Below, one piece after another: positions 4,532 through 33,158 of a DNA stretch of 64,000 bases (positions are counted from its first letter, which is position 1; each line of letters starts with the position of its first letter). The notes below the pieces were generated by a model, which was not told the origin of the DNA, did no database searches, and saw only the letters and a program-made list of their open reading frames with translations. This DNA is from Conyzicola lurida (GTDB lineage: Bacteria; Actinomycetota; Actinomycetes; Actinomycetales; Microbacteriaceae), in assembly GCF_014204935.1 (NCBI RefSeq), contig NZ_JACHMJ010000001.1, forward strand, positions 3,162,001 through 3,226,000, in the 5' to 3' direction. The position numbers and the translations under genes are program-made.

Positions 4532-4533
4532 GC

Positions 4534-7828: not shown

Positions 7829-8011
7829 TGATGGCAGACGGCCGCGCCGACGGCGGATGTTCGAAATAGCTGTGCCGCGCTGAGGTGGCATAACGAAATC
7901 GCGGACGCCGCGGGGCCGGGACTCGCCGCCTGGGCCGCACCGCCCTGCTACCCCGTCGCCCGATGGTCGCACTGCAAGCGGAGGCACCTCGTGCGCGGCA
8001 CAGCACCGAGC

Positions 8012-8135
8012 CGCGCTGAGGTGTGTCGACCGCGCGCCCGCACGAACCAGCGCGTGCGCAACAAAACTCAGCGCGCCCGGGACAATCCTGCGCGCCCGCG
8101 ACAAACCTCCGCGAGCGCGACGTCGCTCAGCGCCG
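8012..8135. repeat. GC-rich palindromic repeat, family 2, copy A
   Basis: Built from ~20-bp units of the type GCGCTGAGGTTTGTCGCG and its complement. The first part (8012-8076) aligns directly with 42384-42446 at roughly 80 percent by eye. The last part (8101-8130, complement of CTGAGCGACGTCGCGCTCGC) matches 42348-42377 in inverted orientation at 29 of 30 positions. Because the element is itself a palindrome, both alignments hold. It lies just downstream of the minus-strand iron operon. Confidence 0.75.
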
Positions 8136-8187
8136 CATAGCCGAATGCGCCGCCCGACGGGGTCGACACGAGCGCAGGCAGGGTGGG

Positions 8188-8496
8188 CTAGTGCCGCGGG
8201 CCTCGGCGCTCGACGCGCACGTCGTCGTCGAGGTCGATTTCGACCTTGCCTCCGTAGATGCCGAGGTCTCCGTCGCCGGCGAGCGGGGCGGGGGCGGGCA
8301 GCACGGTCTGGCGGTCGAGCTCGATCTGGGCCTCGTTACGCGTCGGGTTGAAGACCTCGTCGCCGATTCCCATCACACCGCCGCGCGGGCCGTTGGTCTC
8401 GTTCTTGTTCGAGAGATCGATCCAGCCGAATCGGGAGGCGACGAAGATGGCGATGCACGCCAGTACCACGACCCCGAAGACGATCCACCCGTTCAC
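8188..8496 (-). CDS. Small N-terminally anchored protein, unknown function
   Basis: A 102-residue protein that starts with GTG and has a single N-terminal transmembrane helix (residues ~3-20, IVFGVVVLACIAIFVASRF). A polar, Asp-rich C-terminal part is probably extracytoplasmic or cytoplasmic depending on orientation. It follows the haem/iron transporter ATPase by 9 bp on the same strand, so it is likely the last gene of that operon. I do not recognise a family. Its acidic tail (KVEIDLDDDVRVE) could be a metal-contacting surface, but that is speculation. Confidence 0.7.
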   Translation of the reverse strand: MNGWIVFGVVVLACIAIFVASRFGWIDLSNKNETNGPRGGVMGIGDEVFNPTRNEAQIELDRQTVLPAPAPLAGDGDLGIYGGKVEIDLDDDVRVERRGPRH

Positions 8497-8505
8497 CCCA
8501 CCAGC

Positions 8506-9276
8506 TTAGACAGGAAATGACCCCCGAACGGGGAGAATCACGGGTCGGCCGTTCTGCTCGCGCACCTCGACGGGCAGCCCGTAGACGCGTTCTACCCGCT
8601 CGGCGGTGAGTACTTCGGCCGGGGTTCCGACGGTGTCGAGCCGGCCGGACGCGATCAGCGCCACGCGGTCGGCGTAGGCCGCGGCGAGCGAGAGGTCGTG
8701 CACCACGACCACGACGGCGCGGCCCGCACGGGCGAGCACGGCGGCGGTCGCCATGACCTCCTCTTGGTGGCGCAGGTCGAGCGCCGCGGTCGGTTCGTCG
8801 AGAAAAACCGTCGGCGTGCCCTGTGCCAGCACGCGCGCGAGGGACACCCGCGCCTTCTCGCCTCCGGAGAGCGACGTGTACCGGCGGGCGGCGAGGTGTG
8901 CGACATCCGTAGCTCTGATCGCCTCGGCGATCGCCGCCTCGTCGTCGGCGCTGTCGGCCGTGCGCGCCCACGGGCTGCGACCCATCTCCACGACCTCGGC
9001 GACGGTGAACGGGAAGCTCACCTGGTTCTCCTGGGTGAGCACGCTGCGCAGCCGGGCGAGTTCCACGTGTCGAATCGAGCGGATGTCGCGGCCGTCGATC
9101 CGCACCGACCCGGTGCTCGGCGTGACGTCGCCGCTCAGCACGGAGAGCAGCGTCGACTTGCCGGCGCCGTTCGGGCCGACGAGGGCGAGCAGCTCGCCCG
9201 CGACGATGTCGATGCTGACGCCGTCGAGAACGGGGTGCGCGTCGAATGCGACACCGACGCCCTCGGCGCGGATCAT
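8506..9276 (-). CDS. hmuV: Haem/iron-siderophore ABC transporter ATP-binding protein
   Basis: A ~256-residue ABC ATPase of the FecE/HmuV family. Visible are Walker A (GPNGAGKST, residues ~34-42), a Q-loop (LTQENQVSFPF), the signature LSGGEKAR, Walker B (TVFLDEPTAAL) and an H-loop histidine (VVVHDLSL). The spacing suits haem-type ATPases. I place the start at 9276 because it gives an ATGA overlap with the permease stop and a GGGGG stretch about 7 nt upstream; ATG at 9282 adds two residues. It powers import by the FecCD permease encoded immediately upstream. Ligand choice between haem and ferric siderophore cannot be fixed from the ATPase. Confidence 0.92.
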   Translation of the reverse strand: MIRAEGVGVAFDAHPVLDGVSIDIVAGELLALVGPNGAGKSTLLSVLSGDVTPSTGSVRIDGRDIRSIRHVELARLRSVLTQENQVSFPFTVAEVVEMGRSPWARTADSADDEAAIAEAIRATDVAHLAARRYTSLSGGEKARVSLARVLAQGTPTVFLDEPTAALDLRHQEEVMATAAVLARAGRAVVVVVHDLSLAAAYADRVALIASGRLDTVGTPAEVLTAERVERVYGLPVEVREQNGRPVILPVRGSFPV

Positions 9277-10313
9277 GCCCATCCCCCGCTGCGCTTGCGC
9301 TGCCGGTAGAGCAGGTAGAAGAAGAACGGCCCGCCGATGAGCGAGGTGAGCATGCCGATCGGAAGGTCGGCGCCGGGTACGACGGTGCGGGCGACGAGGT
9401 CGGCGATGCTGATGAGCGCGCCGCCGCCGACCGCGCTCGCGACGATGAGCGGCCGGTGCGACGGGCCGATCGCCATGCGGATCACGTGCGGCACCACGAG
9501 CCCGACGAACGCGATGATGCCGCAGAAGGCGACGGCCACGCCGGTGAGCAGGGCGACGAGCACGATCGACACGATGCGCAGCGACTCGACGTTGACCCCG
9601 AGGTGGCGCGCGTTGCGTTCCCCGAGCGCGAGCAGGTCGTAGCGGCGGCCGAGCACCACCGCGGCGACGAGCCCGACCAGCATGACCGGCACCACGATGG
9701 CGACTTCGCGCCAGAGCGATCCGTTGAGCGACCCGAGCTGCCAGAACGTGATCTGCTCGCGGCTGGCCGTGTCCCCGGCAAAGAGCAGGAAGGCCAGCCC
9801 CGCGCCCGCGAACGCGTTGATCGCGATGCCGGTGAGCAGCAGGGTGACGACCTCGGTGCGGCCGTTGGCCCGCGAGACGAAGTAAACGACGAGGGTCGCG
9901 GCGAGCCCGCCGAGGAACGCCAGGACCGCGATGCTCCAGCTGCCGATCGCGGTGACGCCGAAGACGATCGCGGCGGCCGCGCCCAGAGCGGCACCCGACG
10001 AGACGCCGACGACACCGGGTTCCGCGAGCGGGTTGCCGAAGATCGCCTGCATGACGGCACCCGCGACCGCGAGGGCGGCGCCGACGGCGAGGCCCATCAC
10101 GATGCGGGGGAAGCGCACGATCCAGATGGTCGATTCGACGATCGGGTCGGCGGGCGCCCAGCCGTTGGGGATGCCCGCCGCGCGCAGTAGCGAACCCACG
10201 ATCTCGGCGGGGGTGATGGGCAGCTGGCCGACCATCGACGAGGCGAGCACCGAGGCGACGAGCACGACGGCGAGAACGACGGAGAGCAGGATGCCCCGGG
10301 AGACACGGGTCAC
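9273..10313 (-). CDS. hmuU: FecCD-family haem/iron ABC transporter permease
   Basis: A ~346-residue BtuC/FecCD-type permease with about ten hydrophobic segments and the family landmark GEPGVVGVSSGAALGAA-like sequence around residue 115, plus GNARHLG in the coupling region. GTG at 10313 is preferred because it makes a GTGA overlap with the upstream lipoate-ligase-like gene; another GTG at 10331 would lengthen the overlap to 22 bp. It forms the membrane channel for HmuV. No periplasmic-type binding protein (HmuT) gene is adjacent; its usual place is occupied by the lipoate-ligase-like gene. The operon is headed by an iron box, supporting iron-linked uptake. Confidence 0.92.
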   Translation of the reverse strand: MTRVSRGILLSVVLAVVLVASVLASSMVGQLPITPAEIVGSLLRAAGIPNGWAPADPIVESTIWIVRFPRIVMGLAVGAALAVAGAVMQAIFGNPLAEPGVVGVSSGAALGAAAAIVFGVTAIGSWSIAVLAFLGGLAATLVVYFVSRANGRTEVVTLLLTGIAINAFAGAGLAFLLFAGDTASREQITFWQLGSLNGSLWREVAIVVPVMLVGLVAAVVLGRRYDLLALGERNARHLGVNVESLRIVSIVLVALLTGVAVAFCGIIAFVGLVVPHVIRMAIGPSHRPLIVASAVGGGALISIADLVARTVVPGADLPIGMLTSLIGGPFFFYLLYRQRKRSGGWA

Positions 10314-21496: not shown

Positions 21497-22630
21497 GTGA
21501 GCTTTGACGGCCTCGGCGTTCTGCCCGCTCCCCTCGGCCGACGTGCCCTCTCTTTTGCGGTGGATGCCGCGATCGTGGCGATCGCCGCCATTCCCGCGTT
21601 CATCGGCTACCCCCTGCTGCTCGCCGCAGCGCTCGCGGGCGACACGGGTTCGGGCCCGGTGCCGCTCGTCCTGGTGATCGTCGGCGTCGTGCTGGCCGAC
21701 GCGGTCGTCATCGTGCAGCTCGTGCTGCACGGGCTGCGCGGCATCACCGTGGGCAAGAAACTGCTCGGCCTGCGGTCGGTCAACGTCGACACGCTGGAGA
21801 AGCCCGGGTTCTGGCGCGTCGTGCTGCGTGCGATCGTGCTCGGCGCGAGTTCGATCGTCCCCGTCGCCGGCCCCGCGGTGCTGCTCGCCTCCCCCCTGTG
21901 GGCGTCGAACGCGCAGAAGCGCGGCTGGCTCGACGCGGTCAGCCGCTCGGTACTCGTCGACGCGCGACTCGGCGTCGACCCGTACGACGCCACGGCGATG
22001 CGCGAGGCCCGCAAAGCGCGCGACCGCGCGAACGCCGAGCCCGCCCCCGAGGTTCCGTCGCTCGCCACGGGCACCGGCGCGCCCACTCCGTTCGCGCCGG
22101 GCACCCGCTCGCGATCGTCGATCGTCGGCGGCGCCCCCGCGACCGGCGCCCTCGCCGAAGCCGCCCCGGCCACCGCCGATCCCGCGGGTCCGGTCGCTCC
22201 GGCGACACCTCCCGCAGTTCCCTCCACTCCCGCCACGGGCTCGGTCGGCCTGCCGCCCGGCTTTGGCCAGGCCGCGGCGGCGACGCCCGCGGCGGAAGCG
22301 CTCCTCCTGGGCGAGAACGGTCTGCGCTACGCGCTCAAGGCGACCGCCGTGATCGGCCGCAATCCCGTCGCGGACCCCGCGAAGCCGGAGGCGGCGAGCA
22401 TCATCGTCGCCGACGAGACCTTCTCGATGTCGAAGACGCACGCGCGGCTCGAGCTCGACGCCGACGGCGTGTGGGTCACCGACCTGAGTTCGAGCAACGG
22501 CACCGCCGCCGTGGACACGGCGGGCGCGTCATCCGATCTCACGGCGGGTACGCCCGCCCACGTCGCCTGGGGAGGCACCGTCCGTTTCGGCGACCGGGTC
22601 TTCACGGTCCACCAGTCCAGCAGTTTCTGA
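21497..22630 (+). CDS. RDD-family membrane protein with C-terminal FHA domain (T7SS-associated)
   Basis: About 377 residues. An N-terminal RDD domain (PLGRRALSFAVDAAIVAI with the R/D/D-type pattern, GITVGKKLLGLRSV) has three to four membrane segments within residues 1-140. A Pro/Ala/Thr-rich linker (~170-255) connects to an FHA domain (GRNPVADP, SMSKTHARLELD, TDLSSSNGT; ~285-370) that would bind phosphothreonine. GTG at 21497 is preferred for the GGGGG 8 nt upstream; ATG at 21482 is an alternative. The stop overlaps the AAGGAG ribosome-binding site of the EccC-like gene. It is probably a membrane component of the secretion machine, perhaps regulated by a Ser/Thr kinase through FHA. Function inferred from context. 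Confidence 0.85.
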   Translation: MSFDGLGVLPAPLGRRALSFAVDAAIVAIAAIPAFIGYPLLLAAALAGDTGSGPVPLVLVIVGVVLADAVVIVQLVLHGLRGITVGKKLLGLRSVNVDTLEKPGFWRVVLRAIVLGASSIVPVAGPAVLLASPLWASNAQKRGWLDAVSRSVLVDARLGVDPYDATAMREARKARDRANAEPAPEVPSLATGTGAPTPFAPGTRSRSSIVGGAPATGALAEAAPATADPAGPVAPATPPAVPSTPATGSVGLPPGFGQAAAATPAAEALLLGENGLRYALKATAVIGRNPVADPAKPEAASIIVADETFSMSKTHARLELDADGVWVTDLSSSNGTAAVDTAGASSDLTAGTPAHVAWGGTVRFGDRVFTVHQSSSF

Positions 22631-22644
22631 AGGAGCACCGCTAA

Positions 22645-25600
22645 GTGAAACTCAAACTGGCGCTCAAGCGCGAGAACGGCGAATCGACCGACATCGTCGT
22701 CACCGCCGACGCCACCGCGACCGTCGGCGACGTCGCCCGCACGATCGCCGAGACCGACCCGTCTACGCCGCTGGTCCCGAGCCCGCAGACCGCCCTCACC
22801 CTGCAGGTGGGGCCGCCGAACGCCGCGAAACTCGTCATCCTCGACGCGACCGTGCCCATCGGCGACGCCGCCATCGGTTCGGGCTTCGACGCGGTCGTCG
22901 TGACCGCGCCGGTGTACCCGGTCGGGGGCGCCGGCAGCGACCCGCGGGCGACCGCCGCCGTTCTGCGCGTCACCGCCGGCCCCGACGCCGGGCGCGAATA
23001 CCGCCTCCCGCTCGGTTCCTCGACGCTCGGCCGCGACGCCGCCAATGCCGTCGTGATCGCCGACCCGCTCATCTCGAAACGGCACGCGCGCATCGAACTC
23101 TCGCCCTCGGGAGTCGACATCGTCGACCTCAACTCGGCCAACGGCATCCTCGTCGACGGTGGACTCGTGCCGCGGCTGTCACTGCCGAGCGGGCAGTCGG
23201 TCGTGCTGGGCGACAGCACGGTCACCATCACCCTGATGGCGAACCCGTCGCTCACCGACGACGGCATCCTCGAGCGCGGCGGCCAGCTGCGGTTCAACCG
23301 CTCGCCCCGCGTGGAGGCGCGCTACCCGTCGAAGGAGCTCGCGACCCCCGAGGTGCCGATCGACGCCGACAAGCCGCCGTTCACCGTCATCACGATGATC
23401 GCCCCTGTTCTGATGGGCGGCACGATGTTCGCGCTCACCGGAAACCCGATCTCGCTGGCGTTCGTCGCCCTTGCCCCCGTGATGGTGTTCGGCAACTACT
23501 TCGCGCAGAAGCAGCGGATCGGCAAGAAAACCAAAATCGAAATCGAACGCTTCGAGCTGCAGATCGCCGATCTGGAAGACCAGTTCGAGCAGGAGGCCCC
23601 GCAGGAACGCGCGATCCGGCTGCTCGAGAGCCCCTCGGTCGCCGAGGTCTACGCGGAGGCGCACCGCCTCGGTCCGATGCTCTGGACCCGGCGCCCCGAA
23701 CACTGGAACTTCCTCGACGTGCGCCTCGGTCTCGGCAGCATGCCGTCGCGGCTCACGATCGCCGAAGACGACGGTCGCGGCGGCCTGCCGCTGTTCTCTC
23801 GCCGGGTGGACGACCTGCGCGAACGAGTGCGCCTGATCAGCGACGTGCCGGTGGTCGAGAACCCGTTCCTGTCGGGCGCACTCGGCGTCAGCGGCCCGAG
23901 CACCCTCGTGGCCGACGCCACCCGGGCGCTCGTCGTGCAGTACGCCGGCCTGCACTCCCCCGCCGAGGTCGGCTTCGCGGCGCTGCTCTCCCCCGATTCC
24001 ACCCCCGAGTTCGAGTGGCTCAAGTGGCTGCCGCACACGACGTCGCCGCACAGCCCCGTCGGCGCCGCGCCGCTCGCCGACAGCGCCGCGACAGGGCGGG
24101 CGATGCTCAACGCGCTCGAAGAGATCATCGCGTCCCGCCGGGCCGACGTCCGGCGGGCGGCCGACGCCCGTGGCGCCTCGGAAGACGACAAGGCCGCCGC
24201 CGCCCGCGGCGCCAAGGTCGGATCCCGCGACGCCGGGTCGTTCTTCTCCGACGGTGGAGCGGCCCTCGTGCTGCTCATCGCCGGCGACGCCCCCGTCGAC
24301 CGGGCGCGCCTGGTCCAGATCGTCGAGGACGCGGCCGACGCGCACGTGTTCCCCATCTGGATGGCCCCGACCGTGGAAGCACTGCCGGCCGCCTGCCGGA
24401 CGTTCGTCGACGTGACCGGCGGCCTCGAGGCATCCGTCGTCCACTTCGTCCGTCAGGGCATGATCGTTCCCGACGTGCGGGTCGAGGGCGTCTCCGCCGA
24501 CTACGCGCGGATGCTCGCCCGCCGCCTCGCGCCCGTCGTCGACGCCGGCGCGGTGATCGCCGACTCGAGCGACCTGCCGCGCAGCGTCTCTCTGCTCACC
24601 CTGCTCGGTGCCGACCTGTCGACCGAGACCCAGGCCGCGATCGACCGCTGGAGCCAGAACAACTCGATCCACGACCGCAGCGGCCGCCCGCCGATCGCCC
24701 GCAAGCGCGCCGGCACCCTGCGCGCGCTCGTCGGCCAGACCTCCCCCGACGCGATGCATCTCGACCTGCGCACGCAGGGCCCGCACGCGCTCGTCGGCGG
24801 CACCACCGGTTCGGGCAAGAGCGAGTTCCTGCAGGCCTGGGTGCTCGGCATGGCGGCCGAGTACAGCTCCGACCGCGTCACGTTCCTCTTCGTCGACTAC
24901 AAGGGCGGGTCGGCCTTCGCGGAATGCGTGAAGCTGCCGCACTGCGTCGGCCTCGTCACCGACCTCAGCCCGCACCTCGTGCGTCGAGCGCTCACCAGCC
25001 TGCGCGCCGAGCTGCACCACCGCGAGCACCTCTTCAACCGCAAAAAGGTCAAAGACCTGATCGAGCTCGAGAAGCGCGGCGACCCCGAATGCCCGCCCGC
25101 CCTCGTGCTCGTGATCGACGAGTTCGCGGCCTTGGCCGGCGAGGTGCCCGAGTTCGTCGACGGAGTCGTCGACATCGCCCAGCGCGGCCGCTCGCTCGGC
25201 ATCCACCTGATCATGGCCACGCAGCGCCCGGCGGGCGTCATCAAGGACAACCTGCGCGCCAACACCAACCTGCGCGTCGCCCTCCGCATGGCCGACGAGT
25301 CGGACTCGAAGGACGTCGTCGGCGACCCGGTCGCCGGCACCTTCGACCCGTCCATCCCCGGTCGCGCGATCGCGAAGACCGGCCCGGGCCGCCTCATCCC
25401 GTTCCAGTCCGGCTACGCCGGCGGGTGGACGACAGACGAGCCGGATGTCGCGGGTGTCAAGATCTCGGAACTGCGATTCGGCGCGACCACGCCGTGGGAC
25501 CCGCCCGTGCAGGAGTCGAACGAACAGACGGAGGACCTCGGCCCGAACGACCAGTCGCGCATCGTCACCAACCTCGTGAGCGCGGCGAAGGCCGTGGGAA

Positions 25601-27159
25601 TCCCCGCACCGCGGCGCCCATGGCTCGACGATCTGAAGAGCGGCTACGATCTGCTCTCCCTGCCCCAGGAGCGCGACTCGGCGATCGTCATCGGCGTGAC
25701 CGACAAGCCCGAGAGCCAGCAGCAGCGTCCCGCGTACTTCCGCCCCGACACCGACGGGCACGTCGCCATCTACGGGACCGGGGGCACCGGCAAGACGGCG
25801 CTGCTGCGCACGATCGGAATCGCGGCGGGCATGGCCCCGGGCGGCGGACGCGTGACCGTCTATGGAATGGACTTCGGAACCGGCGCGCTGCGCAGCATCG
25901 AGGCACTGCCCCACGTCGGCTCGATCGTGGCCGGCGACGACCACGAACGCGTCGCGCGTTTGCTCACCATGCTGCGCTCCGAACTCGACGCGCGCTCGGC
26001 CCGCTACACCGAGGTGAGCGCGGCGAGCATCGACGAATACCGCACCCTCACCGGCCGCACCGACGAGCCACGCGTGTTCCTGCTCCTCGACGGATTCGGC
26101 ACGTTCCGGCAGGAGTACGAGTCCAGCCTCGCCCGGGCGCCGCTCTACAACGCGTTTATGCGCCTGCTCGGCGAGGGCCGCCCACTCGGCCTCCACGCCG
26201 TGATCACGGCCGACCGCTACGGCAGCGTGCCGACCGCCGTCAACGCGGCGATCCAGCGCCGCATCGTGCTGCGCATGCCCGACGAAGGCTCGTACCAGAT
26301 CCTCGACGCCCCCAAGGACGTGCTCACCGAGAAGTCGCCTCCCGGCCGCGCGATCGTGGAGGGCGACGAGACACAGATCGCGGTCATCGGCGGCACGTCG
26401 AACGTCTCGGAGCAGACCGCCGCCACCAAGGCCCTCGCCGACCGTTTGCGGGCAGCGGGGGTGCGCGACGCCCCCGAGGTCGGTGCCCTCCCCCGCGAAC
26501 TCACGACGGCCCAACTCCCCGATTCCGTCGAGGGGCTGCCCGTACTCGGCATCTCCGACGAGGCGCTCGCCCCGATGGGGTTCGAGCCCTCCGGCACCTT
26601 CGTCGTCGGCGGACCCCCGTCGAGCGGCAAGACCAACGTGCTGCGTGCCGTCACCCGGGCGATCGCCCGGTCGAACCCGGAGACGAAGTTCTTCCACATC
26701 GGCGGCCGCCGTTCGCAGCTGGCGAAAGACTTCGCGTGGATGCGCAGCGCCGTGCGTCTCGACGAGGGGGTCGAGCTCATCAACGAGCTCGTCGAGGTCG
26801 TCTCCGACGAGGACATCACCAGCCAGATCGTCATCGTGATCGAGAACGCCACGCAGTTCGCGGGCACCCCGATCGAGAAGCCGCTCGTGTCGCTCGCGCA
26901 GAAGGTCAACCGCAGCGACCACCTGCTCATCACCGACGTCGATATCGCCGGCCTCAGCAGCAGCTTCGGTCTGGTCGGCGACCTCAAAGCCGGCCGCACG
27001 GGCATCATCCTGAAGCCCGATACCCACGACGGCGACAACGTGTTCAAAGTGCCGTTCCCGCGGGTCTCCCGTCACGAGTTCCCCGAGGGACGCGGACTTT
27101 TCGTACAGAACGGCAAGGTATCGCGGGTGCAGGTGCCGCTGGTGGACCCCGTCGAGTAG
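22645..27159 (+). CDS. Type VII secretion FtsK/SpoIIIE ATPase (EccC/EssC-like) with FHA domain
   Basis: A 1,504-residue motor ATPase. Residues ~1-90 may be a ubiquitin-like fold; ~105-195 are an FHA domain (LGRDAANAVVIADPLISKRH, LNSANGILV). Two membrane helices follow near 245-290, then three FtsK-type modules. Module 1 has Walker A GGTTGSGKS (K725) and a full Walker B LVLVIDEFAAL. Module 2 has GTGGTGKT (K1050) but Walker B ends in LLLDGF, and module 3 has GGPPSSGKT (K1329) with IVIENA, so modules 2 and 3 lack the DE pair. One active and two degenerate modules is the EccC/EssC pattern. GTG start with AAGGAG at 22630. It should drive export of the WXG-type proteins encoded downstream. Confidence 0.95.
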   Translation: MKLKLALKRENGESTDIVVTADATATVGDVARTIAETDPSTPLVPSPQTALTLQVGPPNAAKLVILDATVPIGDAAIGSGFDAVVVTAPVYPVGGAGSDPRATAAVLRVTAGPDAGREYRLPLGSSTLGRDAANAVVIADPLISKRHARIELSPSGVDIVDLNSANGILVDGGLVPRLSLPSGQSVVLGDSTVTITLMANPSLTDDGILERGGQLRFNRSPRVEARYPSKELATPEVPIDADKPPFTVITMIAPVLMGGTMFALTGNPISLAFVALAPVMVFGNYFAQKQRIGKKTKIEIERFELQIADLEDQFEQEAPQERAIRLLESPSVAEVYAEAHRLGPMLWTRRPEHWNFLDVRLGLGSMPSRLTIAEDDGRGGLPLFSRRVDDLRERVRLISDVPVVENPFLSGALGVSGPSTLVADATRALVVQYAGLHSPAEVGFAALLSPDSTPEFEWLKWLPHTTSPHSPVGAAPLADSAATGRAMLNALEEIIASRRADVRRAADARGASEDDKAAAARGAKVGSRDAGSFFSDGGAALVLLIAGDAPVDRARLVQIVEDAADAHVFPIWMAPTVEALPAACRTFVDVTGGLEASVVHFVRQGMIVPDVRVEGVSADYARMLARRLAPVVDAGAVIADSSDLPRSVSLLTLLGADLSTETQAAIDRWSQNNSIHDRSGRPPIARKRAGTLRALVGQTSPDAMHLDLRTQGPHALVGGTTGSGKSEFLQAWVLGMAAEYSSDRVTFLFVDYKGGSAFAECVKLPHCVGLVTDLSPHLVRRALTSLRAELHHREHLFNRKKVKDLIELEKRGDPECPPALVLVIDEFAALAGEVPEFVDGVVDIAQRGRSLGIHLIMATQRPAGVIKDNLRANTNLRVALRMADESDSKDVVGDPVAGTFDPSIPGRAIAKTGPGRLIPFQSGYAGGWTTDEPDVAGVKISELRFGATTPWDPPVQESNEQTEDLGPNDQSRIVTNLVSAAKAVGIPAPRRPWLDDLKSGYDLLSLPQERDSAIVIGVTDKPESQQQRPAYFRPDTDGHVAIYGTGGTGKTALLRTIGIAAGMAPGGGRVTVYGMDFGTGALRSIEALPHVGSIVAGDDHERVARLLTMLRSELDARSARYTEVSAASIDEYRTLTGRTDEPRVFLLLDGFGTFRQEYESSLARAPLYNAFMRLLGEGRPLGLHAVITADRYGSVPTAVNAAIQRRIVLRMPDEGSYQILDAPKDVLTEKSPPGRAIVEGDETQIAVIGGTSNVSEQTAATKALADRLRAAGVRDAPEVGALPRELTTAQLPDSVEGLPVLGISDEALAPMGFEPSGTFVVGGPPSSGKTNVLRAVTRAIARSNPETKFFHIGGRRSQLAKDFAWMRSAVRLDEGVELINELVEVVSDEDITSQIVIVIENATQFAGTPIEKPLVSLAQKVNRSDHLLITDVDIAGLSSSFGLVGDLKAGRTGIILKPDTHDGDNVFKVPFPRVSRHEFPEGRGLFVQNGKVSRVQVPLVDPVE

Positions 27160-27162
27160 CAC

Positions 27163-27209
27163 GTGGGTAGTCCTCCCCATCGCCCTCGCTTATGAGGGTC
27201 GCTTACGAT
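27163..27209 (+). promoter_or_regulatory. Shared T7SS promoter element, copy 1
   Basis: GTGGGTAGTCCTCCCCAT (27163-27180) carries a TGGG...CCCA dyad. It is followed 23 bp later by the -10-like TACGAT (27204-27209) within TTACGATCGAAAC. The same two-part layout occurs at 30685-30730 before the WXG100 gene. It lies in the 81-bp gap between the ATPase gene and the first small secreted-type gene, indicating a second transcript within the locus. Confidence 0.6.
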
Positions 27210-27240
27210 CGAAACAACGCAGTAGAGAGGTAGTGAACTC

Positions 27241-27582
27241 ATGGGCGACAAGATCTGGCTCAATATGCAGGACCTCGATGACGTCTCTGCCGGCCTCACC
27301 GCGACGATCGACGAGTTCAAGAACGCATCGTCGAACAACGACCGCGCCGAGGAGGCCGTCGGCAAGCCCGACGACCGCAACGAACTCTTCAACAAGCTCA
27401 GCGACTTCGAGAGCGACTGGAACGATAAGCGCGAGGCGCTCACCGAGAACCTCGAAGGGCTCCTCGAGCAACTCAACAATGTGATCACCGGCTGGCGCGA
27501 CTTCGACAAGGGCGTCCGCGATTCTCTCGAAGAGGCGGGCGAGGACAACAAACCCACCCCGGCCTCGAACATCCCGGTATAG
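27241..27582 (+). CDS. Small acidic helical protein, putative T7SS substrate or partner
   Basis: 113 residues, strongly acidic and predicted almost entirely helical, with two long amphipathic stretches (residues ~5-35 and ~45-98) around a polar turn. The size and hairpin-like pattern suit an ESX/WXG100-type helical bundle, but there is no clear WxG; the tryptophan in ESDWNDKREAL lies near the middle. A Pro/Thr-rich tail (EDNKPTPASNIPV) could carry an export signal. It lies directly after the EccC-like gene behind the shared promoter motif, and 8 bp before the large putative substrate, so the two may form a secreted pair. Family not recognised. Confidence 0.75.
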   Translation: MGDKIWLNMQDLDDVSAGLTATIDEFKNASSNNDRAEEAVGKPDDRNELFNKLSDFESDWNDKREALTENLEGLLEQLNNVITGWRDFDKGVRDSLEEAGEDNKPTPASNIPV

Positions 27583-27590
27583 GACGCATC

Positions 27591-28907
27591 ATGGCTCTGA
27601 ACTCACCGAACAAGAACTACACGCTGCGAATTCTCGACGGCAATCCGACCGACATCGAGTCGCGCGGAAGCGGCCTCGTCGCACTCGGCACCACGATGGA
27701 GACCACTGCTGCCGCGCTCAAGAAGATCAGCGAGGGAACCACCCAGATCGCCGAGTCCGTCGACGCGATCCGCGAGGCCGCGGGCGAGATCGACAGCGAT
27801 CTCGCGGATGCCTCCGTACGGTACAAGATGACCGGCGAAACCCTGAAGACCTATGCCGCGGCCCTGCTGACGGCCCATCAGACGATCCACCCGCTCATCG
27901 ACGACATCGAGACGGCGCACTCCACCGCCGAGTCCAAGCGGAACGCCGCAAACGACGCGGCCGGCGACGTCGACAGCCTCGAGACCGTATGGCTCTGGGA
28001 GACCGCGCCCACGGAAGCCGAGCTCAAGAAGGCTGCCGCGGCCAGTTCCACCGCGGCCTCCGCCGCGACCACCGCCGAGAACAATCTCGACGAACTGTGG
28101 GAGACCTTCGAGACCGCGTTCGGCGCCTGGTCTGACGCCTACGACAACGCCGTGGGCGACATTCAGAAGGCCATCGACACCGCCGACAACAACGACGGGT
28201 TCTGGGAGAACCTGAGCGACTTCCTCGACGTTCTCGGCTACATCATCACCGCCCTGGCGATCATCGCCCTCTTCCTCACCGGTCCGATCGCCGCGATAGT
28301 TCTCGCCGTCGTCGCGGTCCTCACGGTGATATCCCTGATCGGACATCTCGCGGCCGCCATTACCGGCAACGGCAGCTGGGTGGATGTGGCGGTCGATGTC
28401 GTGGGACTCCTGACCTTCGGCGCTGGCACCGTCGCTGCGCGATCGATCGCGAAGGGACTGCTGGGCACGTCGATGCGCACGTTGACCGTCGGCGGGCGCA
28501 ACGCGGTGCAGACTGCCATCCGATCCACGATGAAGCCCGCCGTGTGGTGGAACCCGCTCGGAAACGCCTGGCGCGCGGGCTCGGCCTTCATCCGGTCGCG
28601 CGTGCAGACGATACCCGCCGTCTTCTCCATTCCGAACGCCGGACGCGCGATCACGGGTGGAAGCCAGCGAATGGCGGACTTCCTTGCCTTCACCGCGAAG
28701 GTGGAACAGAGGTTCGGCACCAACCCCGGAGTCGCCGCGTGGTTGCAGCAGGCGAAGACCGCCGTGCCCTCGGTGGGCGAGCGCATCGCCAACACGGCAC
28801 AGTGGGCGGGGCTGACCGCCTTCGACTTCGCCGACAAGGGCCTCAACGAGTTCTCGAACAGCTACGGCGAATTCAAAGACTTCCTCACAACCCCGAAGTT
28901 GGGATGA
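27591..28907 (+). CDS. Putative T7SS-exported WXG/LXG-type protein with membrane helices
   Basis: 438 residues. Residues ~1-205 are helical and Ala/Thr/Glu-rich (KKISEGTTQIAESVDAIREA, WETAPTEAELKKAAAASS), resembling the N-terminal helical targeting domain of large T7SS substrates. Two to three hydrophobic segments follow (~208-265, GYIITALAIIALFLTGPIAAIVLAVVAVL), then a ~170-residue C-terminal region with basic and hydrophobic stretches and WXQQ-type motifs. I recognise no toxin active site in the C-terminus. The next gene encodes a four-helix membrane protein, which would suit an immunity protein or a second export component. Slightly lower GC than flanking genes. Effector status is a hypothesis. 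Confidence 0.7.
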   Translation: MALNSPNKNYTLRILDGNPTDIESRGSGLVALGTTMETTAAALKKISEGTTQIAESVDAIREAAGEIDSDLADASVRYKMTGETLKTYAAALLTAHQTIHPLIDDIETAHSTAESKRNAANDAAGDVDSLETVWLWETAPTEAELKKAAAASSTAASAATTAENNLDELWETFETAFGAWSDAYDNAVGDIQKAIDTADNNDGFWENLSDFLDVLGYIITALAIIALFLTGPIAAIVLAVVAVLTVISLIGHLAAAITGNGSWVDVAVDVVGLLTFGAGTVAARSIAKGLLGTSMRTLTVGGRNAVQTAIRSTMKPAVWWNPLGNAWRAGSAFIRSRVQTIPAVFSIPNAGRAITGGSQRMADFLAFTAKVEQRFGTNPGVAAWLQQAKTAVPSVGERIANTAQWAGLTAFDFADKGLNEFSNSYGEFKDFLTTPKLG

Positions 28908-28914
28908 TAGAAGA

Positions 28915-29451
28915 ATGACCACCAGAACGGCCCTGACGGACGTCGAACTCGACCGCCGTGTCGCGCGCGGTAAGCGCGTCTTTATGTACGCGGCATTCGC
29001 CATGCTCCTCTTCTTCCTCCTCAGCCTGCTGAACTTCGTGCTCGCGGGCGGCAGGATGGGACTTCGCGACACGGCGCGCTGGGACGAGACGGCCGCGTGG
29101 CCGTTGATCCCACTGCCCGCGTTCCTCGTGATCGCGGCCGGGCTCGCCGCCGTGATCGGCGTGTTCCTCGCGGTGCCCTACTTCCGCCACGACACGGCAG
29201 ACGACCTCGTGCTGATGGGGGTCGTCTCCATCATCCTGTTCGGCTTCATGTCGCTGTTCTTCGCCGGCGTGTATACGTCGACGAGCGGCATCCCCACGGA
29301 TTTCGACAGCTACCCGGAACAGGGCGTCGGCTGGCACTGGATCGCCGCGGCCATTCAGATCCCGGCCGTCATCGCCCTCACCGTCCGCGGAATCTCCCTG
29401 TACCGCGCCCACAAACGCAGGAAGCAGGATTCCCATCTCGAATCCGCGTGA
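28915..29451 (+). CDS. Four-helix membrane protein in the T7SS locus
   Basis: 178 residues with four clear hydrophobic segments (~20-45, 60-92, 99-122, 138-160), a basic N-terminus and a basic C-terminal tail (AHKRRKQ). No family recognised. It starts 7 bp after the large putative substrate gene and is followed closely by two soluble proteins, so it belongs to the same transcript. It may protect the producer against the neighbouring protein, or be a species-specific membrane part replacing EccB/EccD-type components; the sequence does not decide. Confidence 0.7.
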   Translation: MTTRTALTDVELDRRVARGKRVFMYAAFAMLLFFLLSLLNFVLAGGRMGLRDTARWDETAAWPLIPLPAFLVIAAGLAAVIGVFLAVPYFRHDTADDLVLMGVVSIILFGFMSLFFAGVYTSTSGIPTDFDSYPEQGVGWHWIAAAIQIPAVIALTVRGISLYRAHKRRKQDSHLESA

Positions 29452-29473
29452 GCACACCCGGAAGGCCGACCCC

Positions 29474-30082
29474 GTGAACCTCGCCGACGAGCTCAAGGGC
29501 GTCGCGCCCACGCCGGAACTCTCCTACACGCTGCTCTTCCCCCCGGGATGGGCGCACTTCGGGATGACCCGTGAGGCGGAGAAGCAGCTGGTCTCGAACA
29601 TCCAGGAGATCTACCAGGAGCGGGGAAAGGCCGAGTTGGCCCTCGACCTGCGCACGCGCACCCACGTGTACTTCTCCAAGCTCCGCCAGATCGGCGCGCG
29701 GGCGATCTACCTCCCGATCCGCCGCGTCGACGACATCGTCCTCCCGGTGTCGATCGCCGCCGTTCCGTACTCCGTACCGACGGGCAGCACCATACTCGGG
29801 CTCGCCTCGACGCTGGGCAGCGGATCATTCGAAGAGGTGCAGCTTCCCCAGGGTCCCGCCCTCCGCGCGGTCGTCGACCGCAACCGGGTCGACAAGGAAG
29901 AGGGCCTCTCCTCCCGCACCATCACCTACCTCGTGCCTACTCCGGGCGAGAGGCCGCGACAGGCGGTCATGTTCAGCTTCGCCATACTGCACCTGACCGG
30001 CGAGGAGGGCACGGAGTTCGTCGAAGTGCTCGAGGCTCTCTTCGCGTCGATCATGAGCACCTTCCGTTGGAGACACGAGTGA
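29474..30082 (+). CDS. Unknown soluble protein in the T7SS locus (first of a pair)
   Basis: A 202-residue protein with a GTG start and no signal peptide. Notable stretches are ELSYTLLFPPGWAHFGMTREAEKQ near the N-terminus, a strand-rich centre (IYLPIRRVDDIVLPVSIAAVPYSV) and a helical C-terminus (GEEGTEFVEVLEALFASIMSTFRW). It overlaps the next gene by a GTGA junction. Its C-terminal layout (strand, then a helix ending in an aromatic-Arg motif) resembles that of the next protein (ELGRIALMLEDMTTLMESVRF), so the two may be diverged relatives or partners, possibly chaperones like EspG. This is inference from shape only. Confidence 0.65.
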   Translation: MNLADELKGVAPTPELSYTLLFPPGWAHFGMTREAEKQLVSNIQEIYQERGKAELALDLRTRTHVYFSKLRQIGARAIYLPIRRVDDIVLPVSIAAVPYSVPTGSTILGLASTLGSGSFEEVQLPQGPALRAVVDRNRVDKEEGLSSRTITYLVPTPGERPRQAVMFSFAILHLTGEEGTEFVEVLEALFASIMSTFRWRHE

Positions 30083-30663
30083 CCGGTTACACCTTCGCCT
30101 ACGATCCCGAGCTCTGGATCGCGGTTCCCTTGGACTTTGCTCCCACCGAGTGGGCGGACGCGGACGCGTGGGCCGACGACGTGTCGCGGCAGATCTCCGC
30201 GGGCGCTCCCGATCCGGAATCCGTGCGTCCGGCGTTCTACGAGACCGCACTCGAGGTGGCGGCGCTCGACACACCCGGTGCCGCGGATCGCTTCTGGTAC
30301 TTCCCGGTCGACGCGCGCTTCGTCTCCGTGGTGAACGGCTACGCCGTTCCCCGCGACGTCATCGAGGGCGAGGCGACGCTCGAGCAGTTCGCGGGCTCCG
30401 ACGACGAGTCGATCACCGTGCCGTCGATCGAGTCCTTCGATTCGGCTGTATTCGGCCGACTCGTGCTCGGTCTGACGACCACCGCATTCCAAGACGATGA
30501 CGACCAGCGCGTCGTCGTCGGCCAGGCGCGTCTCGTCGGCGAGACCGCGGGTCACATCTTCCTCTTCGAAGTTCTCGACCGGGAACTCGGCAGAATCGCC
30601 CTGATGCTGGAGGACATGACGACCCTCATGGAATCCGTCCGCTTCTCCGCCGACGAGGGGTGA
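30079..30663 (+). CDS. Unknown soluble protein in the T7SS locus (second of a pair)
   Basis: 194 residues, acidic. The start is taken as the GTG at 30079 that overlaps the previous stop (GTGA); a TTG at 30067 would be a poorer choice. The N-terminus YTFAYDPELWIAVPLDFAPTEW is followed by mixed alpha/beta sequence and a C-terminal helix rich in Met and Leu. Like its upstream partner it begins with a DPELW/PPGW-type segment suggesting a shared fold. No enzymatic motif is visible. Placement between the putative substrate and the WXG100 gene suggests a chaperone or assembly role, unproven. Confidence 0.65.
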   Translation: MTGYTFAYDPELWIAVPLDFAPTEWADADAWADDVSRQISAGAPDPESVRPAFYETALEVAALDTPGAADRFWYFPVDARFVSVVNGYAVPRDVIEGEATLEQFAGSDDESITVPSIESFDSAVFGRLVLGLTTTAFQDDDDQRVVVGQARLVGETAGHIFLFEVLDRELGRIALMLEDMTTLMESVRFSADEG

Positions 30664-30684
30664 CGACCACCGCGGTGATCGCGC

Positions 30685-30730
30685 GTGGGTAGTGGTGCCC
30701 ATAGGCGCCTGACGGATCGTCGATTACGGT
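30685..30730 (+). promoter_or_regulatory. Shared T7SS promoter element, copy 2
   Basis: GTGGGTAGTGGTGCCCAT (30685-30702) differs from the copy at 27163 at only three inner positions and keeps the TGGG...CCCA dyad. The -10-like TACGGT (30725-30730) follows 22 bp later within TTACGGTGGAAAC. It drives the WXG100 gene as a separate, probably abundant, transcript. Confidence 0.6.
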
Positions 30731-30782
30731 GGAAACCATAAACCACGTCCTTTCCGATGAGGGACACAGGAAGGCTGAGATT

Positions 30783-31067
30783 ATGACTTTTCACGCTAGC
30801 TACGAAGCAATGGAACAGACCGCTCTGACCCTCGACGGCGGAGCCGACGACATCCGCGCGCAGCTCACCTCGCTCCTCGGCAAGGTCGAAGACCTCCTGG
30901 GCGAGGGCTTCAAGACCGAGCTGGCCTCGGGCAAGTTCGGCGACGGATACCGCGAGCTCAACACCGGCGTCAACCAGGCCGTCGAGGGCATCGACGCCAT
31001 GGCGCAGGCACTGCGCGACATGTCGACCAAGACGCAGGAGCACGACGCCTCGATGGCCGGCAGCTAA
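30783..31067 (+). CDS. WXG100-like protein (EsxA-type)
   Basis: 94 residues, the classic ESX size: two amphipathic helices (residues ~5-42 and ~53-90) around a turn, with no signal peptide. The start is ATG at 30783, preceded by AGGAAGG. The family WxG turn is replaced by FGDGY (SGKFGDGYREL near residues 45-55), so the signature tryptophan is absent and aromatic F/Y stand in. It has its own promoter motif and is followed by a strong terminator, as expected for a highly expressed secreted substrate. Likely exported by the EccC-like ATPase as a dimer. Confidence 0.85.
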   Translation: MTFHASYEAMEQTALTLDGGADDIRAQLTSLLGKVEDLLGEGFKTELASGKFGDGYRELNTGVNQAVEGIDAMAQALRDMSTKTQEHDASMAGS

Positions 31068-31080: not shown

Positions 31081-31117
31081 ACGAAGGGCCGGGCGACCAT
31101 GTCGCCCGGCCCTTCGT
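31081..31117. terminator. Strong bidirectional hairpin terminator
   Basis: A perfect 17-bp inverted repeat, ACGAAGGGCCGGGCGAC (31081-31097) and its complement (31101-31117), with a 3-nt CAT loop. It lies 13 bp past the WXG100 stop and 8 bp before the stop of the converging LacI gene, so it can end transcripts from both sides. Confidence 0.9.
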
Positions 31118-31125: not shown

Positions 31126-32130
31126 CTAGCGCGTGCTCTCGCGCACCACGAGCTCGGGCTCGAAGACCACCTGCCGCGGCGGGGTCGCCGGGTCGTCGGC
31201 CTGCTCGAGCAGGATCTCGACCGCCGTGCGGCCGATGAGCGCGCTCGGCTGGCGGATCGACGACAGCGGCACGACGGCGGCGCTGGCGAAGTCGATGTCG
31301 TCGTAGCCGATCAGCGCGATCTCCTGTGGCACACGCACCTCGGCCTGCATCATGAGCGCCTGCAGCACGCCCATGGCCACGAGGTCGTTCGCGGCGAAGA
31401 TCGCGTCGGGGCGGTCGGCGGGGGCGCGCTCCACGATCGCGACGCCCGCGGCACGGCCGGCGAGCACGCTGAGCGCGTCGACCTCGACGACCTCGAGCGA
31501 CGAGGAGGGGTGGTCGGCGATGGCCAGGCGAGCGCCCGCCAGGCGGTCGGTGACCTGGCGGATCTCCATCGGGCCGCCGATGAAGGCGATACGGGTGCGG
31601 CCCTGCGCGACGAGGTGCTCGACCGCGAGACGGCCGCCGGCGATATCGTCGACCGAGACGGAGCTGAACGCGCTGTCGCCGCTCGAGCGGTCGACGAGTA
31701 CGGCGGGGATTCCGCGGTCGCGGAGCCGGGCCAGGCGCGCGGTGATGTCGCCGAACGGCGAGATGAGAACGCCGTGCACGCGCTGCTCCTCGAAGAGGTC
31801 GAGGTACGCCGATTCGCGCTCGCTGTTCTCGTCGCTGTTGCCGAGGATGACGGTGAGGCCGGCCTGCGCGGCCTGGTCTTCGGCGCCGCGGGCCACGTCG
31901 GTGAAGAACGGGTTGCGCACGTCGAGCACCACGAGCCCGATGGTCTTGCTGTGCCCCGCCCGCAGCTGACGCGCGGCGTCGTTGCGGATGAAGCCGAGCT
32001 CGTCGATGGCGGCGATCACCCGGGCGACCGTCGCCTCTGCCACTTTGTCGGGCCGGTTGAGCACGTTGGAGACGGTGCCGACCGAGACGCCGGCGCGCTG
32101 GGCGACGTCGCGGACGCTCGCGGGGTTCAT
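31126..32130 (-). CDS. LacI-family regulator, second of a tandem pair
   Basis: 334 residues: HTH (SVRDVAQRAGVSVGTVSNVLN, residues ~5-25), hinge (NDAARQLRAGHSKTIGLVV) and effector domain. ATG at 32130 overlaps the stop of the upstream LacI gene (ATGA). The two proteins are clear paralogues, sharing RQVTDRL/RQVADRLEGA, IAFIGGPMEIRQ/IAFVGGPLGIRQ and IALIGYDDIDF/IALVGYDDIEF. The recognition helix (VGTVSNVLN versus LGTVSHYIN) differs, so they may read related but different operators, such as the GTGTCAA and GATTCAA classes seen in this window. Regulator of the sugar clusters on either side by inference. Confidence 0.9.
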   Translation of the reverse strand: MNPASVRDVAQRAGVSVGTVSNVLNRPDKVAEATVARVIAAIDELGFIRNDAARQLRAGHSKTIGLVVLDVRNPFFTDVARGAEDQAAQAGLTVILGNSDENSERESAYLDLFEEQRVHGVLISPFGDITARLARLRDRGIPAVLVDRSSGDSAFSSVSVDDIAGGRLAVEHLVAQGRTRIAFIGGPMEIRQVTDRLAGARLAIADHPSSSLEVVEVDALSVLAGRAAGVAIVERAPADRPDAIFAANDLVAMGVLQALMMQAEVRVPQEIALIGYDDIDFASAAVVPLSSIRQPSALIGRTAVEILLEQADDPATPPRQVVFEPELVVRESTR

Positions 32131-33158
32131 GCCGAGACCGCTGTCTCCGACGTCACCGTCGAGCCCCGCACGACGAGGTGCGGTGGGAAAACCACGTGCT
32201 TCGGGGCGTCGCTCGGCTCGCCGGAGAGCTCGGCGAGGAGCAGCTCGACGGCAGCGATGCCGAACTCCTCGTGCGGGGCGCGGACGGACGTGAGCGGGAT
32301 GATCGACGACTCGCCGAACTCGATATCGTCGTACCCGACGAGCGCGATGTCGTGGGGCACGCTCACGCCGTGGTCGACGACGAACGCCTGCAGCAGGCCG
32401 AGCGCGAGCAGGTCGTTGACAGCGAAGACGGCGTCGGGGCGGGACTCCTCCGGGCGGCGGGCGATACCGGCAGCCACGACGCGGCCCTCGGCGATGGTGC
32501 GGTCGGCGACGTTGATCACCTCGAGCGTCGCCTCGGGGTTTTCGGCGATCGCCTTGCTGGCGCCCTCGAGACGGTCGGCGACCTGCCGGATTCCGAGCGG
32601 ACCGCCGACGAAGGCGATGCGCTTGCGGCCGCAGTCGAGCAGGTGGCGAACGGCGAGGTAACCGCCGGTGACGTCGTCGATCGAGACGGAGGGTTGCTGG
32701 TCGGAGACGGCGCGCTGCCCCACGAGCACCGACGGGGTGCCCCGCTGGCGCAGCTGCAGCAGGCGTTCCTCGATCGGGTCGTGCGAGGCGACGAGAAGGC
32801 CCTGCACGCGCTGCGCCTCGAAGAGCTCGAGGTACGCGTCTTCGCGCTCGCGCGAGCGGCCGGAGTTGGCGATGAAGACCGAGAACCCCTCGGCGGCCGC
32901 ACGCTGTTCGACGCCCTCGGCGATCGTGGCGAAGAAGGGGTTGCTCACGTCGGGCGCGATGTACGCCATCGTCGCGCTGCGCCCCAGCCGCAGCTGCCAG
33001 GCGGCGTTGTTGCGCACGAAGCCCAGTTGGTCGATCGCCCGCTGGATGCGCTGCTGCTTCTCGGGCGAGACCCGCGCCGGGTGGTTGATGTAGTGCGAGA
33101 CGGTTCCGAGGGAGACCTCGGCGAGCGTCGCGACCTCGCGAATACCGACTCTGCTCAC
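32127..33158 (-). CDS. LacI-family regulator, first of a tandem pair
   Basis: 343 residues with a GTG start. The HTH (GIREVATLAEVSLGTVSHYI, ~5-24) is followed by the hinge VRNNAAWQLRLGRSATMAYI and a full periplasmic-binding-like domain (NPFFATIAEGVEQ, GYLAVRHLLDCGRKRIAFVGG, DAVFAVNDLLALG). It is paralogous to and translationally coupled with the downstream LacI gene. Upstream on the same strand lie a carboxymuconolactone decarboxylase and an SDR gene, so the four may be one transcript controlled by the operator at 34545. The effector sugar is unknown. Confidence 0.9.
   Translation of the reverse strand: MSRVGIREVATLAEVSLGTVSHYINHPARVSPEKQQRIQRAIDQLGFVRNNAAWQLRLGRSATMAYIAPDVSNPFFATIAEGVEQRAAAEGFSVFIANSGRSREREDAYLELFEAQRVQGLLVASHDPIEERLLQLRQRGTPSVLVGQRAVSDQQPSVSIDDVTGGYLAVRHLLDCGRKRIAFVGGPLGIRQVADRLEGASKAIAENPEATLEVINVADRTIAEGRVVAAGIARRPEESRPDAVFAVNDLLALGLLQAFVVDHGVSVPHDIALVGYDDIEFGESSIIPLTSVRAPHEEFGIAAVELLLAELSGEPSDAPKHVVFPPHLVVRGSTVTSETAVSA

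Follow-up and report, generated by a model that had tools for sequence, protein, structure and literature searches.

A putative type VII-like secretion system in Conyzicola lurida, with an FHA-bearing EccC-type ATPase of a separate clade and genes apparently split over two loci

The 64,000-nucleotide stretch of the Conyzicola lurida genome analysed here (the window; C1:3162001-3226000 of a genome that forms a single 3.64 Mb contig) carries a locus resembling those of type VII secretion systems (T7SSs). Its genes all lie on the + strand and encode an RDD-FHA protein (21482 if read from an ATG, or 21497 from a GTG, to 22630; Pfam RDD 3.9e-12, FHA 1.5e-5); an EccC/EssC-like ATPase of 1,504 aa (22645..27159; Pfam FtsK_SpoIIIE 2.1e-53, FHA 7e-12); a WXG100-like helical protein of 113 aa (27241..27582); a 438-aa substrate or effector candidate (27591..28907), so classed by sequence comparison and hydrophobicity; a Holin-X-like protein of 178 aa with four transmembrane (TM) segments (28915..29451), assigned by Pfam and hydrophobicity; a 202-aa protein with a predicted Mog1/PsbP/LpqN/Eag-like fold (29474..30082); a protein of about 194 aa (30079..30663); and a WXG100 protein of 94 aa (30783..31067; Pfam WXG100 1.2e-9), whose ATG start at 30783 was chosen by eye and for which a longer version from GTG 30729 is possible. 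This is the set of genes listed in the initial annotation, and a codon-usage gene caller returned it identically, with later starts for the first and last genes.

The ATPase consists, in order, of a predicted ubiquitin-like domain, an FHA domain, two TM segments (aa 246-287) and three ATPase modules. Among NCBIfam models it scores best against EssC, at 535.7 bits and thus below the cut-off of 778.4, with EccCb and EccCa next; in 18 relatives, modules 1 and 2 keep their Walker A residues. The FHA domain (aa 105-197; 22957..23235, + strand) is of the phosphothreonine (pThr) type and closest to those of GarA, OdhI and FhaA. Its residues R130, S144, H147, N166 and G167 are invariant in 18 sequences and at least 90% conserved in 52, and the first four are what we take to be the pThr-contacting positions. 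The 52 sequences (sample A2) comprise the window's and, after 16 near-copies or odd starts had been skipped, those of 51 of the 55 loci listed; sample A4 took 18 of 21, leaving out L066, L067 and L071, and sample A3 took 21 of 22 plus the window. In the neighbouring RDD-FHA protein an RDD membrane domain is followed by a C-terminal FHA domain in which the GR...S-K-T-H...NG residues can be seen by eye. The initial annotation had read the two FHA domains as a sign of control by Ser/Thr phosphorylation, and the pThr-binding residues, conserved in the one and apparent in the other, fit that suggestion.

We predict that the N-terminus of the ATPase (aa 1-87; 22645..22905, + strand) is a ubiquitin-like domain of the EsaB/YukD type. 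Several clues bear on this: firstly, AlphaFold2 models it as beta-beta-alpha-beta...beta, with a predicted local distance difference test score of 84-96 per 10-residue block; secondly, the Pfam YukD model gives weak matches to 4 of the 52 N-termini of sample A2 (best 0.043) and to 5 of 18 other related N-termini (best 3.6e-4); thirdly, on an Agathobacter plasmid a stand-alone YukD, an FHA protein and EssC are encoded by three consecutive genes, in the same order as the fused domains.

None of the locus proteins matched an EccB, EccD, EccE or mycosin family in Pfam or NCBIfam, in keeping with the earlier statement that the canonical ESX membrane and protease genes are missing here. EssA, EssB, EsaA and EsaB likewise gave no family match among the locus proteins; for these four, as for EccE, no genome-wide search was made.

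Relatives of the ATPase at 38-77% identity are present in 22 of 59 other genomes, mostly full-length, a few being fragmented or on a broken contig, so that the locus is not a product of chance. In a tree of 60 rows, 51 FHA-type or related ATPases part from 7 of T7SSa and 2 of T7SSb with SH-aLRT support of 99; the rows were hand-picked, the method quick and the root arbitrary, and the T7SSb rows are two plasmid-borne EssC on long branches. The ATPase clade is separate from T7SSa and T7SSb, the window's protein grouping neither with EccC of T7SSa (SH-aLRT 99) nor, as far as two long-branched rows can tell, with EssC of T7SSb. We assigned group labels for this analysis, with A for ATPases close to the window's, B, C for short ones and D for those of other classes, and read the list of 23 group A genomes from the ATPase search of 60 genomes. 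Among the best 80 of 575 confirmed candidates, group A occurs in Micrococcales and also in Propionibacteriaceae, Nocardioides, Dactylosporangium, Lentzea, Actinospica and one Mycobacterium sp.; group A ATPases are found, too, in same-phylum genomes of other classes.

A plasmid search with the ATPase matched 546 records, all at less than 60% identity; a relative at 45% identity is encoded on an Arthrobacter replicon that is listed as a plasmid, and plasmids of Rothia terrae gave long ATPase matches among the matches listed. A Streptomyces atratus plasmid holds a minimal three-gene locus (L236, 3353-14335) that encodes a 2,028-aa putative T7SS-secreted protein, a WXG100 protein and an FHA-type ATPase of branch B. 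Luteimicrobium album has two ATPases of the family in one 19-kb stretch (L150), with WXG-type and LpqN-like genes between and after them.

Many relatives carry the ATPase in a long operon of the order [Ig/FN3 giant protein]-MoxR-DUF58-TgpA-(RDD-FHA)-PP2C-FHA protein-Ser/Thr kinase-236-aa protein-ATPase-WXG100, as derived from gene calls and clustering over loci and confirmed by Pfam in representatives; the 236-aa family has no Pfam match and is FHA-like by eye. The initial annotation had proposed comparing neighbourhoods for the RDD-FHA and ATPase pair, and an RDD-FHA gene does stand beside the ATPase gene in relatives. To count upstream genes we took the 102 A loci less L059, L125 and L146, in which no ATPase was called; 66 of the remaining 99 have at least 7 kb of upstream DNA. 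TgpA is encoded upstream in 47 of these 66, DUF58 together with TgpA in 43, PP2C in 30, the kinase in 28 and both of the latter in 28, as compared to 0 of 6 T7SSa control loci; no B locus has 7 kb upstream, and B therefore gave no upstream control. The corresponding RDD-FHA count of 46/66 is by profile best hit and includes FHA-only proteins, and 3 of the 6 T7SSa loci match as well. Downstream, WXG100-like genes lie within 10 kb of the ATPase in 76 of 89 loci.

The linkage was also tested in reverse over the 60 genomes. An EccC-like ATPase is encoded no more than 12 kb away from 17 of the 37 lower-scoring TgpA genes and from 0 of the 43 higher-scoring ones; the two classes were split at E 3e-20 after the list had been seen, the ATPase positions were taken from the hits of the ATPase search, and distances run start to start, so that a few neighbours may be missed. 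The 17 linked ATPases comprise 5 of the close type, 1 of type B and 11 short or unclassified ones, which places the linkage to TgpA in a wider clade.

In C. lurida itself, genes of this operon are found 0.84 Mb from the window locus, at C1:2.332-2.347 Mb. This second locus reads PP2C-FHA-kinase-244 aa-FN3-MoxR-DUF58-TgpA-201-aa FHA protein, followed by leuCD-like genes (by eye), and was confirmed by Pfam (kinase: Pkinase 1.7e-34). Its giant protein of 1,864 aa has Big_9 and fn3 (Ig/FN3) domains, its TgpA is complete at 774 aa, as identified by Pfam search and profile, and neither an ATPase nor an RDD match was found in the locus. The genes for kinase, phosphatase and envelope parts thus stand in one locus and those for motor and effectors in the other, which suggests a system that is split and not reduced. 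The description of the window locus as reduced is misleading, since the genes it lacks (kinase, phosphatase, further FHA proteins, FN3 giant, MoxR, DUF58 and TgpA) are present in the same genome and share with it the rare promoter element described below. A further operon of the genome, FN3-like-MoxR-DUF58-TgpA-FHA (L039, C1:1057001-1075000, at 3-9461), ends in a short EccC-like ATPase of 968 aa and lacks that element; the short EccC type occurs in many of the genomes searched.

The element, TGGGTAGTNNTNCCCA, is a palindrome with exactly 4 copies in the 3.64 Mb, two per locus; the reversed control has 0. In the window, one copy (GTGGGTAGTCCTCCCCAT; 27163..27180, + strand) lies upstream of the 113-aa gene and is followed after 25 nt by the -10-like hexamer TACGAT (27204..27209, + strand), and the other (GTGGGTAGTGGTGCCCAT; 30685..30702, + strand) lies upstream of the WXG100 gene and is followed after 24 nt by TACGGT (30725..30730, + strand). 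The second-locus copies are found 111 bp before the PP2C gene (C1:2347232) and 113 bp before the gene of the 1,864-aa protein (C1:2342665). A sigma-70 consensus scan found nothing, and the promoter emerged only from the comparison of relatives, where the group A consensus, ATGGGGAGTNCTCCCCAT, precedes WXG100 genes. Of 150 distinct regions upstream of WXG-type genes, 71 contain the pattern TGGG[TG]A-N6-CCC, versus 11 of 589 upstream of other genes (Fisher 1.5e-44); it has 199 hits in these loci as compared to 25 for the reversed pattern. Over 75 copies, the columns that the pattern does not fix are T (75/75), A (74/75) and T (75/75).

A TAnnnT hexamer follows the element at 24 nt in 49 cases and at 25 nt in 22, all other offsets from 16 to 40 together giving 2. 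Because this spacing is fixed, the element is likely to be an activator site. The pair of element and hexamer occurs 71 times, in 49 of 106 A loci, and 0 times in 15 B, 9 D, 4 C and 7 T7SSa loci; the whole palindrome is present in 17 of the 23 group A genomes versus 2 of the 37 genomes that have no close ATPase. Of the sites unlinked to an ATPase locus we fetched a selection of 20, one of them in C. lurida, and 9 of these, all in relatives, directly precede system genes with the hexamer at 24-25 nt, namely FN3 (G011, G026), PP2C (G006), LpqN-like-PP2C-FHA (G053), an effector module (G013) and WXG-type genes (G047 and G041, two sites each), the WXG matches passing only E 0.01. From the sites in G011, G026 and G006, the split under the same switch appears to have been repeated there.

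Folding of the element as an RNA hairpin found no support (z -0.4 and -1.1), and a literature search for the motif showed no T7SS paper containing it among the matches listed. Further sites include a fifth, imperfect copy in C. lurida near a MarR-like gene (by eye), with the hexamer not at its usual place (L266, 3515-3530; C1:3458014); a perfect palindrome without hexamer beside flagellar genes (by eye) in G006 (L255, G006:C1:2085000-2091000, at 2960); and sites to which no system genes were assigned (L248, L250, L251, L252, L257, L258, L259, L261 and L264).

The 113-, 438-, 178- and 202-aa proteins form what may be an effector module. Hydrophobic segments occupy aa 208-282 of the 438-aa protein, whose identity to 14 relatives is 22-64% over residues 1-100 and 3-27% over residues 301-350; in the nearest relative the ATPase is 77% identical, yet the two copies of the 438-aa protein there reach no more than 10-30% identity over residues 301-438. 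This conserved front and variable end liken it to polymorphic effectors, and we regard it as a candidate polymorphic substrate or effector; neither it nor the rest of the locus has a Pfam LXG match. The LXG effector of T7SSb with its two small partners is the analogue of such a module. The 113-aa protein matches the WXG100 family of these loci by profile (94.9%, P 1e-8) and may be a Lap-like partner of the effector. The 178-aa protein passes the Pfam Holin-X cut-off narrowly (4.6e-7; 30.3 versus 28.4 bits), and phmmer, run over the genes called in 40 regions, found it only in the window and in L040, inside the effector module, so that it seems to travel with the effector and not with the ATPase. 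It is a candidate immunity protein or partner of the effector. A role as channel part was rejected, since in 38 of the 39 other regions the ATPase has no such neighbour. The initial annotation had let the RDD and four-helix proteins stand in for the missing channel; the latter half of that idea falls away with this distribution, and the RDD-FHA protein may still be an envelope part.

The family of the 202-aa protein is found at many of these loci. Its predicted fold resembles Mog1, PsbP, LpqN and the Eag (DUF1795) chaperones of the type VI secretion system (T6SS), for example SciW, which was solved with its effector's membrane part; the immunity protein Tsi3 is also among the fold matches (E 2e-4 to 1e-2; TM-scores up to 0.48 of the query). 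The likeness to these proteins is one of fold, and since the substrate has membrane segments, a role as chaperone is preferred over the rival role in immunity. As sequence relatives, the 202-aa and LpqN-like families were rejected (hhalign 0.4%), fold prediction being the sole link. The protein of about 194 aa, which may be a distant relative of the 202-aa family, aligns weakly with family c12 (hhalign P 0.0066 over 198 columns, 2.5% probability) and gave no hhalign match to the 202-aa family itself. Elsewhere, an LpqN-family protein (L144:16533-17012; Pfam Lpp-LpqN 2.1e-5) belongs to family c11, which has 18 members and stands beside substrates in several loci; such LpqN-like proteins are perhaps chaperones in place of the 202-aa family. 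The earlier view that four of the locus proteins lack a recognisable family holds in that none of the 113-, 178-, 202- and about 194-aa proteins has a firm one; it does not hold for the 113-aa protein, which is WXG100-like by profile, or for the 202-aa protein, for which a Mog1/LpqN/Eag-chaperone-like fold is predicted. Models of anti-phage defence in PADLOC gave only cross-hits of ATPase domains and of a coiled-coil stretch, and a known defence system thus found no support.

At its upstream side the locus is neighboured by a methionine-synthase-like gene (by eye). Downstream, a hairpin at 31081..31117 (no strand assigned; dG -40.9, z -7.6), likely a bidirectional terminator, separates the WXG100 gene from a convergent LacI-like gene; two consecutive LacI-type regulators (by eye), convergent to the T7SS locus, occupy 31126-33158.

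Together, these data suggest a type VII-like secretion system with an ATPase of a separate, phylum-wide clade, in which ubiquitin-like domain, FHA domain and EccC motor are fused, and with its genes split over two loci; arguing from sequence, we put the probability of this reading at roughly 0.6. It is probably a kinase/FHA-controlled T7SS variant akin to two described gene sets, the T7SSd and the bifidobacterial PFNA cluster. In such a system, a common regulator would bind the 18-bp palindrome and turn on the WXG100 and effector genes along with the control and envelope operons, the regulator and the sign of its action being our supposition. The kinase would phosphorylate Thr residues, the FHA domains of the ATPase and the RDD-FHA protein would bind them and so gate assembly, and PP2C would reverse the phosphorylation. 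The fused ubiquitin-like domain might do the job that EsaB/YukD or the domain of EccD does elsewhere. The ATPase would export the WXG100 proteins and the 438-aa effector, the latter targeted by its WXG-like partner, while the Mog1-fold protein, like the Eag chaperones of the T6SS, could shield the effector's membrane segments; the four-TM protein is a candidate for immunity. The Ig/FN3 protein may be an envelope or surface part, matured by MoxR-DUF58-TgpA.

A number of observations weigh against this reading. The evidence for the ubiquitin-like identity is a predicted fold together with weak sequence matches; an end-to-end alignment of the EccD and ATPase N-termini is weak (P 0.0037, 3.7% probability), and the 50 Foldseek matches listed are FHA or FHA-like structures only. 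In C. lurida the RDD-FHA/ATPase operon itself lacks the element, and in the second locus TgpA is followed by a separate small FHA protein, so that the two loci are not exact complements; moreover, the operon at 1.06 Mb has a short EccC of its own as its last gene, so that the assignment of partner genes is provisional. The second-locus promoters have TAnnnT at 34 nt and not at 24-25, ten bases or about one helical turn further. Of the 23 group A genomes, 6 show no full palindrome, and 11 of the 20 unlinked sites fetched, among them the fifth relaxed site of C. lurida, do not clearly stand upstream of system genes. The element pattern was refined on the same data in which it was counted, and since the loci partly repeat the same species (L052 and L108 are apparently the same contig), the counts are not independent events. 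Finally, the WXG100 protein has neither a W-x-G nor a C-terminal YxxxD motif (by eye).

The strongest rival, to which we would give somewhat less than even odds, is that this is the T7SSd spread over two loci, which would add a new member, or a sub-branch, to a subtype already described. Described from Actinomycetota, the T7SSd (Tsd) comprises an FHA-bearing ATPase, the kinase TsdD, the Ig giant TsdI, the single-TM protein TsdH and the WXG100 protein TsdA, with no separate ubiquitin-like gene, according to excerpts of its account (Garrett, Higginson and Palmer 2024; PMC11217815). The component types agree: an FHA-bearing EccC/EssC-type ATPase with conserved pThr residues, a WXG100 protein, no separate ubiquitin-like gene, a Ser/Thr kinase (here in the second locus and not beside the ATPase, yet upstream of it in 28 of the 66 A loci) and a very large Ig-domain protein, here the 1,864-aa protein of the second locus. 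Two loci of the same phylum and another class, L225 and L226, carry ATPase and kinase, and L225 also an FN3 protein. Beyond T7SSd, by contrast, C. lurida has PP2C, RDD-FHA, MoxR, DUF58 and TgpA, a predicted ubiquitin-like domain fused to the ATPase, split loci and a shared promoter element. The same excerpts name no transglutaminase, MoxR, DUF58 or RDD and describe no ubiquitin-like domain fused to the FHA-ATPase (PMC11217815), and our 60-row tree is one without a TsdC, Olsenella or Bifidobacterium sequence.

The second locus has the gene set of the Bifidobacterium PFNA cluster, which consists of pkb2 kinase, fn3, MoxR AAA-ATPase, duf58, tgm transglutaminase, prpC phosphatase and fha and is described as a host-signalling cluster, with 0 mentions of FtsK or secretion in the portions of text retrieved (PMC8430577, PMC6803598). 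The order kinase-244 aa-fn3-MoxR-DUF58-TgpA is kept; unlike in PFNA, PP2C and FHA come first and not last. Our literature searches, which covered open-licence papers, found none that joins PFNA-type genes with a T7SS motor.

The ATPase could instead belong to an envelope maintenance or signalling complex built on MoxR-DUF58-TgpA-FN3, with structural WXG-like proteins and no secretion motor. The strong linkage to TgpA/DUF58/MoxR and FN3 proteins would suit this, as would the treatment of kinase and FN3 as host signalling in the portions of the PFNA papers cited above. We consider it unlikely in view of the full EccC/EssC architecture with Walker A conserved in modules 1 and 2, the frequency of WXG100-like genes downstream and the polymorphic substrate-like proteins. 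Still less likely is that the palindrome is a general promoter element and the two loci are not functionally joined: the 11 unlinked sites without clear system genes, one of which lies by flagellar genes in G006 (by eye), speak for it, while C. lurida has only 4 strict and 5 relaxed sites, the whole palindrome follows the group A genomes, and element plus hexamer number 0 in 35 loci of other ATPase branches.

Among the other described types, T7SSe (Tse) resembles the C. lurida genes in its kinase, PPM phosphatase, separate FHA protein, Ig-like giant protein and WXG100. The excerpted account confines it to Bacillota, gives it a stand-alone ubiquitin-like TseB and names no TgpA/MoxR/DUF58 (PMC11217815), whereas the genes studied here are actinobacterial, with the ubiquitin-like part fused and TgpA/MoxR/DUF58 present. 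T7SSb (Ess/Yuk) shares the FHA domains of EssC N-terminal to the motor, and EssC is the best NCBIfam match; it differs in that EssB, EsaA and EssA are not matched in the locus, the EsaB-like part is fused and the clade stands apart. T7SSa (ESX) has in common an EccC-type motor and WXG100 proteins, and differs in that the C. lurida system has no EccB or EccD match and carries the FHA and ubiquitin-like domains on the ATPase.

That the locus is a divergent but ordinary ESX/T7SSa whose EccB, EccD, EccE and mycosin lie elsewhere, as some relatives with EccB and EccD and a mycosin-like protease at C1:0.625 Mb might suggest, is very improbable and largely refuted: EccB and EccD partners elsewhere, which the initial annotation had named as grounds for abandoning its view, gave 0 matches each in the whole C. 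lurida genome, the EccB/EccD of relatives adjoin a different EccC, and the best genome-wide match to the mycosin model lies beside eno, at 257 bits and below the cut-off of 278.75. Across the 60 genomes, EccB was matched in 10 at E 0.001 (9 over the cut-off) and EccD in 16 (8 over the cut-off); only 2 of the 23 group A genomes, G024 and G043, have either over the cut-off, and there these genes adjoin another EccC on a different contig, which falls in the T7SSa clade in G024 and was not placed in G043. Two partial EccD matches in G016, at 22.7 and 21.1 bits, are far below the cut-off. The protease gene (L170:9254-10546; C1:624754-626046) stands alone, with eno/FtsB/DUF501-like genes on one side and NADH dehydrogenase on the other (by eye).

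We would tentatively go further, to a proposal that is possible though not favoured by the odds: PFNA and T7SSd may be halves of one phylum-wide T7SS, controlled by kinase, phosphatase and FHA proteins, in which the EsaB/YukD part is fused to the FHA-EccC motor and MoxR-DUF58-TgpA with the Ig/FN3 giant replace EccB/EccD/EccE or EssB/EsaA; in the window's branch, one factor at ATGGGGAGTNCTCCCCAT, 24-25 nt from the -10 box, would drive WXG100, effector and control operons even where these are scattered. The present reading supplies a parts list for a large actinobacterial T7SS branch of which we found no description, would tie the orphan "host-signalling" PFNA operon to a secretion motor and points to what may have become of the "missing" ubiquitin-like component in such systems. 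The palindrome with its fixed -10 box may serve as a sharp signature for finding scattered T7SS effectors and their regulator, and phosphorylation control of a T7SS would become directly testable in environmental strains.

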